Program-made: the position numbers and the translations under genes | Notes under the pieces: generated by a model | Seen by the model: the letters and a program-made list of their open reading frames with translations, nothing else | The model's database searches: none | What the model was told of the DNA's origin: nothing | Origin: Pseudidiomarina sediminum DSM 21906 | GTDB lineage: Bacteria; Pseudomonadota; Gammaproteobacteria; Enterobacterales; Alteromonadaceae | DNA length: 64,000 nucleotides | Direction of reading: 5' to 3' | Assembly: GCF_000423165.1 (NCBI RefSeq) | Contig: NZ_KE383983.1 | Coordinates: 1,391,440 to 1,455,439 of the forward strand | Shown: one piece after another, positions 62,461-64,000 of the stretch | How the letters are laid out: each line of letters starts with the position of its first letter | Numbering within the stretch: position 1 is the first letter of the stretch

Positions 62461-62537
62461 GCGTCCGTAGCTCAGTTGGTTAGAGCACCACCTTGACATG
62501 GTGGGGGTCGGTAGTTCGAGTCTACTCGGACGCACCA
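62461..62537 (+). tRNA. tRNA-Val (anticodon GAC)
   Basis: A 77-base cloverleaf. The acceptor stem GCGTCCG / CGGACGC is perfect. The D-arm is GCTCAGTTGGTTAGAGC, the anticodon stem CCACC/GGTGG, and the loop TTGACAT with GAC at 34-36. The variable loop is GGGTC and the T-arm GGTAG-TTCGAGT-CTACT, whose closing pair is G-T. Discriminator A and the CCA tail are encoded. It reads GUC/GUU valine codons. An IS110-family element lies directly downstream. Confidence 0.96.
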
Positions 62538-62639
62538 CTTCTCCAAAGATTCCCGTTCGAAGTTCCAGCACCTTTATCCAGTTATCATTGCTCCAGCGCG
62601 CCAAAAAATCAACATTCAAACGCAGCGCATGACTCTCTC

Positions 62640-62883
62640 TTGTCTCGTGAGCCACCTCGTCTATTTGCGCACTTTTATGGCCGTTTTGTGCCAAATATAG
62701 TCATTCGACCTTGGTCACTTGTACTCAATAGTGTTCAGGTATGTGCTTGCTGTTTACGACTAATGTGCCAGCATCATTTTAATGATCTCCGCTTTTCCTT
62801 CGAAGCAGCAAGCACCTTTACTCTACAACGAATACTCAGGGCTCGCTTTACACGACTGTCTATATTTATTTCGCAGAGTAAAG
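62640..62883 (+). ncRNA. Candidate bridge RNA of the IS110 element
   Basis: Three consecutive stem-loops precede the transposase. A: 62647-62718, outer stem GTGA-g-CC/GGTCAC, an internal loop, inner stem TATTTG-c-GCAC / GTGCCAAATA. B: 62743-62815, a perfect 10-bp stem GTGCTTGCTG/CAGCAAGCAC enclosing two single-stranded loops and a small inner hairpin, ATCATT-TT-AATGAT. C: 62816-62883, a perfect 9-bp CTTTACTCT/AGAGTAAAG. Paired stems with large internal loops are the architecture of IS110 bridge RNAs, which guide target and donor choice. Transcript ends are not known. Confidence 0.5.
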
Positions 62884-62891
62884 ATACATAG

Positions 62892-62906
62892 CTAACTTAA
62901 AGTTAG
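62892..62906 (+). repeat. Palindrome before the transposase start
   Basis: CTAACTT-A-AAGTTAG is a perfect 7-bp inverted repeat around one base. It ends ten bases before the ATG and overlaps the front of the ribosome site (AGGGGG). It could bind recombinase or limit translation; nothing more can be said. Confidence 0.5.
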
Positions 62907-62915
62907 GGGGACGTC

Positions 62916-64000
62916 ATGGTCGATCAAACAGCTAAATTCTCTGCATTCATAGGCCAGGATTGGGCTAATCAAAAGCACGATGTTTGCGTTCAAGTTGGTG
63001 CAAACGGAAAGCGTAGGTTCGAGGTGATTAAGAATACTCCGGAGCTTCTGGAGTGCTGGTTAAACGAGCTTCATAGTGAGGTTGGTGGCAATATCGCCGT
63101 AGCTGTTGAACTGACACGAGGTCCGATTGTTTATCTACTTCAGAAATATCCGTTTATAACCGTGTTCCCAATTCATGCGTTGTCACTCGCCCGCTATAGA
63201 CAAGCTTTTGCTCCTAGCGGCGCAAAAGATGACCCTACCGACGCGGAAATAGCTTTAGACTTAATGTTGAAATATCCATCTAAAGTAAAACCTCTCAAAC
63301 CCAGCAATAACGAAGTGAGAGTACTGTCTCATCTTGTAGAGCAGCGTCGTTTGCTTGTTGAGGATAAGCGGCGATTTGTTAATCGATTAATAAACGCTTT
63401 AAAGCAATATTATTCTCAACCGCTGGAATGGTTCTCTCACAGAGACAGTGATTTGTTTTGTGACTTTCTCCTGCGTTGGCCGTCACTACAAGAACTCAAA
63501 CGCTCTCGTGAAAACACGATACGGGAGTTCTTTAAAAGTCGCGGAGGCAACGCGGTTTCGCTTACAGAAAAGCGCCTTGAAGCTATCGCGGCAGCTGTAC
63601 CTCTCACGCATGATGAAGCAGTAATTCAAGCTCACAAACGCTTTGTCCAGTCAGTCATTAAGCAATTGAAAGTTACCATCGACAATATCCGAACTTACGA
63701 TTCAGAAATCCGCACGTTGTTTGAACAAATGCCGGATGCAGCTATTTTTAGCTCTTTACCAGGAACTGGCCCTTGTTTGGCGCCCCGACTCCTTGCTGCT
63801 ATCGGTGACGATAGAGAGCGCTTCAGCACTGCACAACAGCTGCAAAATTTTGCCGGGCTCTCTCCCGTAACAGAAAGAAGTGGTAAAAAAAGTTGGGTTC
63901 ATTGGCGTTGGCAATGCTCGAAATTTGTCAGACAAAGCTTTGTTGAATGGGCTGCTAAAAGTGTCCATCAATCCTATTGGGCTGGACTTTATTATCAACA
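62916..64000 (+). CDS. IS110-family transposase (recombinase), 3' end beyond window
   Basis: 361 codons remain open to the window edge, starting M-V-D-Q-T-A-K-F with AGGGGG five bases upstream. The N-terminal RuvC-like DEDD domain has F-I-G-Q-D-W-A (Asp15), A-V-E-L-T-R-G (Glu65) and D-D-P-T-D-A-E (Asp106/Asp109). A coiled helical middle follows. The C-terminal Transposase_20 domain has S-S-L-P-G-T-G-P at ~279-286 and F-A-G-L-S-P-V-T-E-R-S-G-K-K at ~312-325, which carries candidate catalytic serines (Ser316, Ser322). No frameshift is seen, so the copy looks intact as far as it goes. Confidence 0.92.
   Translation, partial: MVDQTAKFSAFIGQDWANQKHDVCVQVGANGKRRFEVIKNTPELLECWLNELHSEVGGNIAVAVELTRGPIVYLLQKYPFITVFPIHALSLARYRQAFAPSGAKDDPTDAEIALDLMLKYPSKVKPLKPSNNEVRVLSHLVEQRRLLVEDKRRFVNRLINALKQYYSQPLEWFSHRDSDLFCDFLLRWPSLQELKRSRENTIREFFKSRGGNAVSLTEKRLEAIAAAVPLTHDEAVIQAHKRFVQSVIKQLKVTIDNIRTYDSEIRTLFEQMPDAAIFSSLPGTGPCLAPRLLAAIGDDRERFSTAQQLQNFAGLSPVTERSGKKSWVHWRWQCSKFVRQSFVEWAAKSVHQSYWAGLYYQ

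Follow-up and report, generated by a model that had tools for sequence, protein, structure and literature searches.

IS621 is among the described mobile elements closest to the locus analysed here. In the parts of the IS621 reports that bear on it (PMC11208160, PMC11208158), this element has a DEDD and serine recombinase and an RNA in its left end. The RNA consists of a 5' stem-loop followed by a target loop and a donor loop, each with a left and a right guide, and the target is a palindromic repeat. A promoter at the circle junction is established for IS621 in the relevant part of PMC11208160 and for ISEc21 in that of PMC11187229. In this study, we analysed a stretch of 64,000 nucleotides from Pseudidiomarina sediminum DSM 21906 (the window), which ends in an IS110 element with this type of recombinase, a predicted RNA of this layout and a palindromic target repeat; it may also have a circle-junction promoter. 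The present recombinase is longer than that of IS621 (about 414 aa compared to 328 aa for the solved IS621 chain). Unlike IS621 as covered in those parts, the element has a different target repeat, and its target-side junction dinucleotide is variable, whereas it is CT in IS621. A closing helix, P0, proposed for the present elements, may be a further difference.

The locus was also similar to ISEc21 and its seekRNA, as far as the available part of PMC11187229 describes them: both belong to the IS110 group, have the RNA upstream of the gene with the bottom-strand match before the top-strand match, cause no target duplication and show target-side reprogramming in relatives. However, the ISEc21 transposase has 358 aa in that account and its target is linear and lies inside IS3 transposase genes, whereas ours is a palindromic repeat. 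The same part of that paper gives 395-455 aa for the IS110 subgroup, a range that includes the present recombinase. Like the present element, the REP-targeting elements ISPpu9, ISPpu10 and the IS1111-type ISPa11 enter an interspersed palindrome at a single fixed position, according to the relevant section of PMC1525189; their repeat is a different one, and 2-bp direct repeats are reported there for ISPpu9 and ISPpu10, whereas none was seen here. RefSeq annotates the E. coli relatives as "ISEsa2 family", an annotation name only, and these have the same ends, RNA layout and target repeat. A bridge RNA in the present element was to be expected from the 2024 papers; its kind is already known and the element is a further example.

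Position, ends and recombinase gene of the element

The window is the end of contig C1 of a 2.62-Mb genome, and the recombinase gene runs past the contig edge (Table 1). The sequence-only reading had listed 62540-62915 under an IS110 element with a candidate bridge RNA and had described the stretch as free of ORFs. Its two neighbours, tRNA-Val and the transposase, were found where they had been placed. However, 62538-62695 is host DNA that ends in the left half of the target, and the element begins only after it. A mechanical ORF of 132 aa (TTG start, 62493-62891) does cross the region; its first codon falls within the tRNA gene, and we do not regard it as a credible gene. The right end, which that reading had proposed to recover, was found in L009 and L010.

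Table 1. Features of the locus, in window coordinates; the RNA features, promoter box and target sequence are predictions.
Feature	Position	Strand	Evidence
tRNA-Val (GAC), host gene left of the element	62461..62537	+	ARAGORN; Rfam tRNA, 67.9 bits
Left half of target site, TATGGCCGTTTTGTGCCAAA	62676..62695	+	common to both own copies; checked against the left flanks of 77 elements and relatives' empty sites in E. coli
Left-guide match TGTGCCA	62687-62693	+	within left target half
Two junction bases	62694-62695	+	within left target half
IS110 element, left end to contig end	62696..64000	+	continues past window; TATAG left edge; right ends in L009, L010
TATAGT, first bases of the element; also donor right half and predicted -10 box of the circle-only promoter	62696..62701	+	sequence comparison
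SL1, 5' stem-loop of the predicted RNA	62708..62740	+	conservation; enlarged counterpart in distant set
P0, 5' strand (overlaps SL1 3' arm)	62738..62744	+	RNAalifold proposal; A1 and A3 tests
Target-binding loop: 10-bp stem, inner CGA/TCG stem, inner hairpin 62773-62786	62743..62815	+	covariation, both alignments
Left target guide TGTGCCAG, same letters as left flank	62764..62771	+	guide-flank comparison
Right target guide CCGCTTTT, reverse complement of right target half (A)AGCGG	62789..62796	+	guide-target comparison
Donor-binding loop: 9-bp stem, inner CGAA/TTCG stem	62816..62883	+	covariation, both alignments
Left donor guide CTCAGGGC, same letters as the element's right end	62835..62842	+	right ends in L009/L010 and relatives' loci
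Right donor guide CTATATT, reverse complement of left end AATATAG	62860..62866	+	comparison of 77 elements
P0, 3' strand	62886..62892	+	RNAalifold proposal; A1 test
IS110 recombinase gene, 361 codons within the window, open to contig end	62916..64000	+	ORF list; Pfam/NCBIfam
Predicted target sequence of the window element, GTGCCA at guide position: GTCTGCTTTGTGCCAGAAGCGGAC			

Contig C4 of the same genome ends in a second copy (L004), and one right end each was found at a contig end of C7 and of C5. Since left and right ends sit at contig edges, the assembly evidently broke inside the repeated element. Both own copies are interrupted by contig ends and neither is visible whole, and the length of about 1,493 bp was obtained by adding the window coordinates to a right end located on another contig. 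An element start at 62676, proposed from the alignment of the two own copies, was ruled out by the relatives and the empty sites; the copies align back to that position because both targets are alike. By homology with the relatives, the predicted start is 62696. The left end thus comprises 220 bp with the RNA region upstream of the gene, and the right end 28 bp in L009. A long left end with an upstream RNA and a short right end place the element in the IS110 group and not in the IS1111 group, a group marked by sub-terminal inverted repeats of 7-17 bp.

We compared 80 loci with relatives 51-82% identical to the window recombinase. Most left ends began with TATAG or a near variant. The host DNA ahead of it differed between loci, apart from letters resembling GTCYGCT and a hexamer that itself varied. 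On the right, CTCAGGGCGTGA followed by (A/T)GCGGAC-like letters was common to most ends. The left junction dinucleotide of 77 elements was AA in 22, GA in 20, AT in 10, GG in 6, AC in 5, TT in 5 and TA in 3, with six singletons, and the right junction was GTGA in 57 of 69. A solo left-end (RNA) piece of a relative, without transposase and cut by IS1, was seen on an E. coli plasmid (L158:2001-2166), and similar solo pieces occur in other records.

The gene product matched Pfam PF01548 (N-terminal DEDD domain; 83.4 bits, cut-off 29) and PF02371 (C-terminal Transposase_20; 69.8 bits, cut-off 21.3), and with 152.4 bits it also exceeded the cut-off of 140 for NF033542 of NCBIfam, "IS110 family RNA-guided transposase". 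A profile built from 22 relatives matched the solved transposases of IS621 (8wt6, E 4.7e-11) and ISCro4 (9t56, E 1.2e-10), whereas the single window sequence gave no match to solved transposases at E 1e-3. D15, E65, D106, D109, S322 and G323 were invariant in 22 aligned sequences; we take the four acidic residues and the serine of the SG motif to be the catalytic set of an IS110 recombinase. Residue 14, in the GxDWA motif (62955-62957), is Q in the window copy and L or I in the other 21 aligned recombinases. The transposase is present in two same-genus genomes besides the source genome.

On the host side, the 25 other same-genus genomes are homologous to the window as far as roughly the tRNA-Val 3' end (window 62461-62542) and no further, and several of them contain pieces of the tRNA 3' part at other positions. 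The 3' end of this tRNA gene is likely an integration hotspot. In an Rfam search, the tRNA alone reached its gathering score; HPnc0260 (52.5, gathering 59) and Plastid-ycf2 (27.5, gathering 65.7) were sub-threshold matches antisense to the tRNA and were discarded.

Stem-loops of the left end and a proposed closing helix, P0

Three back-to-back stem-loops had been described by eye, two with perfect outer stems of 10 bp and 9 bp and one with a bulged stem of 6 bp. All three are present. The target-loop outer stem pairs 62743-62752 with 62806-62815 and the donor-loop outer stem 62816-62824 with 62875-62883, both perfectly. The SL1 stem, as read from the sequence, joins about 62708-62714 to 62735-62740 and includes one G-U pair. 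Judged by folding energy alone, the region was unremarkable: z was -1.17, and 11 of 100 shuffled sequences folded equally well or better.

Covariation was examined in two alignments. A1, made from sequence alone, contained 40 left ends, from 38 of the 58 loci L011-L068 and both own copies, near-duplicates excluded. A3 contained 20 sequences, from 18 of the 22 loci L069-L090 (without L073, L074, L085 and L089), the window and L013; 18 of them are absent from A1 and its members are mostly more distant from the window than those of A1. In A1, SL1 and both loops (45 pairs) had 84.8% of cells paired, compared to 32-43% when the 3' partners were slid, and the covariation score was 0.269 compared to at most 0.121. 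Of the five shuffle measures, two did not stand out, namely both-side changes (reached by 152 of 500 shuffles) and further pair types (18 of 500). The target-loop helix was 94.7% paired with both-side changes in 10 of its 16 pairs. Pairing was lower in SL1 (74.6%) and in the donor stem (68.9%), which in our reading comes partly from subfamilies misaligned by one or two bases. In A3, the target and donor loops had 97.6% of cells paired (27-44% slid), and both-side changes were seen in 13 pairs, compared to an average of 5.6 in the shuffles. These results indicate that conservation lifts the predicted stem-loops above chance, which folding energy alone would not. The covariation check that the sequence-only reading had proposed thus came out in its favour, and so did its suggestion that the shapes are those of target- and donor-binding loops: the stems covary, and the loops covary with the target halves and the element's left end.

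RNAalifold proposed a further helix, P0, in which the SL1 3' arm is paired with the RNA 3' end. In A1, its six pairs were 93.8% paired compared to at most 46.6% slid, with 34 double-changed cells compared to at most 4; the helix was found on that same alignment, and two shuffle measures were unexceptional. The signal in A3 was weaker (88.3% compared to at most 51.4% slid; 6 double-changed cells compared to at most 3). In the window, P0 contains a single mismatch, G-G at 62739/62891. SL1 covaries in A3 as well, SL1 and P0 are mutually exclusive, and the SL1 state was energetically favoured in 37 of 40 sequences. Both helices covary yet exclude each other, and the bridge RNA of this subgroup might be a two-state switch, in which the SL1 3' arm would alternatively pair with the RNA 3' end and close both guide loops in one domain, so that only a full-length transcript would be competent for recombination. 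We regard this as a tentative and rather doubtful reading. The choice between P0 and SL1 poses a structural question.

Guides and the DNA that they would pair with

Guides were compared with insertion sites in 77 of 82 elements (the 80 loci and the two own copies); L074 and L085 had no usable left end, and L018, L041 and L045 had no left flank. The loop was placed by hand in L043, L056 and L067. The left target guide matched its own left flank over at least 5 contiguous bases in 72 of the 77 and over at least 6 in 70. It failed in five (L026, L043, L063, L079 and L090), two of them by one base. With one element per guide type (N = 40), the left guide scored 7.35 against its own flank and 3.70 against swapped flanks, which 0 of 2000 shuffles reached; the reverse-complement control was not fully flat (3.65 compared to 3.41, 116 of 2000 shuffles). 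The guides were then clustered so that 6-base words were never common to two clusters. Across the resulting 17 families, the scores were 7.19 for own and 3.43 for swapped flanks, with 0 of 400 shuffles in each of 50 draws, and the own partner was best in 92%. Examples shared by guide and flank are CTAGCCA (L012), GTACGTAA (L015), CACCGACA (L028), GATACGA (L057), TAATTGCCC (L070) and CATACTC (L084). In the window, TGTGCCAG compares with TGTGCCA-AA in the window flank and TGTGCCAGG in the flank of the second copy (L004). L043 has the guide GTGCCA but the target GAGCGA, as well as a broken ORF; it is perhaps a recombinant.

The right target guide was compared with the reverse complement of the right target half. 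It scored 5.53 compared to 4.42 swapped (N = 38, 0 of 2000 shuffles), and 5.52 compared to 4.05 with one element per guide core (N = 23); the same-strand control gave 2.68 compared to 2.73. The match is short and mostly CCGCTT/AAGCGG. Clear cases were L059 (CCCC with GGGG), L068 (CAATTT) and L081 (ACCGTTTT), and no plain-identity match was seen in L028, L057, L063 and L080. The reverse complement of the window right guide, AAAAGCGGAG, compares with GAAGCGGACG in L010 and GATGCGGACG in L009.

On the donor side, the left guide and the right end both contained CTCAGGG in the sequences read; the motif hardly varies. In 74 of 77 elements, the right donor guide is complementary to the five bases with which the element begins. 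Six of eight altered left ends were compensated, TATGG by a CCATA guide in four elements and TATAA by a TTATA guide in two; L026 (CATAG) and L072 (TAAAG) were uncompensated, and in L083 the guide was changed with the left end unchanged. Thus, the left target guide, the right target guide and the right donor guide change together with the DNA that they would pair with, and in the comparative membership tests the predicted RNA falls with the bridge RNAs. Because the loop letters of the relatives match the sites of insertion as well as the ends of the element itself, 62696-62915 very probably is the gene of an IS110-group bridge RNA.

The stem-loops could instead be conserved for another reason, as a leader controlling translation of the recombinase or as protein-binding sites of the left end, and guide no target. 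In favour of a leader, the start codon follows immediately downstream of the region, and SL1 and P0 are alternatives to each other in the manner of a regulatory leader; a control role could coexist with guiding. However, such a leader does not predict loop letters that change with the flanking host DNA or with the element's left end, and they change with both. We therefore consider this explanation very unlikely.

A promoter box for the bridge RNA was sought across the joined ends. The right end contains a TTGNNN-like box 17-18 bases upstream of TATAG in the circle. Taking the best of three spacings and consensus match only, 61 of 73 elements had at least 4 of the 6 letters of TTGACA in the circle state (mean 4.08), compared to 16 of 75 in the integrated state with host flank (mean 2.84). 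The window box, TTGTTG, has only 3 of 6. We propose that 62696-62915 would give rise to a transcript of about 185 bases that has one loop for the target and one for the donor, made mainly from the promoter formed when the excised circle joins right end to left end. The RNA would bind the recombinase; its target loop would pair with a GTCYGCT-N10-AGCRGAC repeat in which the loop is GTGCCA, and its donor loop with the junction of the circle (CTCAGGGC...TATAG). The DEDD/serine recombinase would then exchange strands at the paired sites. In at least 17 families, the guides have changed along with their targets while the recombinase stayed 51-82% identical to that of the window, and the table of guides and sites can be used to test what longer, IS110-like bridge recombinases accept.

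The target repeat and its empty sites

For two E. coli relatives (L159 and L157), the flanks joined at TATAG and GTGA were found uninterrupted. The L159 site matched 400 of 400 bases at 100% among the matches listed, and 93 of 5,426 E. coli genomes cover at least 80% of it. The second site, L157, was found at 400 of 400 bases in 3 genomes. By this comparison, the element of these two relatives is TATAG...GTGA, placed without duplication or loss between the halves of an intact palindromic repeat, GTCYGCT-N10-AGCRGAC. For the insertion in the window itself, the 25 other same-genus genomes yielded no empty site, as homology ends at about the end of the tRNA. When the flanks of a Pseudoalteromonas copy (L017) were joined and compared with 394 genomes, an orthologous empty site was likewise not found; 28 of the genomes had partial matches, and one 34-base match at 88% (G299) spans the join.

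These sites bear on whether the guide-flank match is an artefact, in which case the left-flank hexamer would belong to the element, and the loop would have received a copy of it or been inherited together with it. Both own copies have the same flank back to 62676, which alone would place the hexamer inside the element. However, the hexamer is part of an uninterrupted host site in the two E. coli insertions, at 100% over 400 bases, and different insertions have unrelated flanks outside the repeat. An artefact of this kind is still less likely than a leader. Least likely of all is an IS1111-type element aimed at integron attC sites, for which the VCR-like stretch after one right end (L010) could be cited, whereas the RNA upstream of the gene, the long left end and the 28-bp right end, together with the GTCYGCT/AGCRGAC repeat in place of attC at the other three junctions and the relatives' loci, speak against it.

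The palindrome GTCYGCT-N(9-11)-AGCRGAC had 24 exact sites in 12 of 26 same-genus genomes, compared to 1 for the control. In our own table count, the guide position of these 24 sites was GAGCGA in 12, GTGCCA in 7 and another sequence in 5. The guide of L013 (Idiomarina) is GAGCGA and that of the source genome GTGCCA. Across 229 genomes of the class, 57 sites were found compared to 12 for the control, unevenly distributed (27 in one genome and 8 in another), and many loops among the matches listed were CGACCC or CGGCCA. The common natural loops GAGCGA, GTGCCA, CGACCC and CGGCCA all serve as guides (in L013, the window, L072 and L082, respectively). The repeat offers a ready target. There was no excess in 33 other genomes (6 sites compared to 5 for the control) and no clear enrichment in the own genome, with 1 exact site and, allowing 3 mismatches, 3 forward and 3 reverse sites compared to 2 and 1 for the control. 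A literature search with the letters of the repeat gave nothing evidently relevant among the matches listed.

Some observations concern the DNA around the insertions. The right end in L010 is followed by an attC-like stretch (TAACAAACGC...GGCGTTAAC), which we take to be VCR-like, beside three small ORFs (L097:15483-17844); this flank perhaps consists of integron cassettes. L044, L055 and L157 have the same right flank as L027, L042, L046 and L048, with left flanks that are partly different. A 200-base piece running rightwards from the repeat recurs at other E. coli sites, and the target repeat may be the edge of another mobile element.
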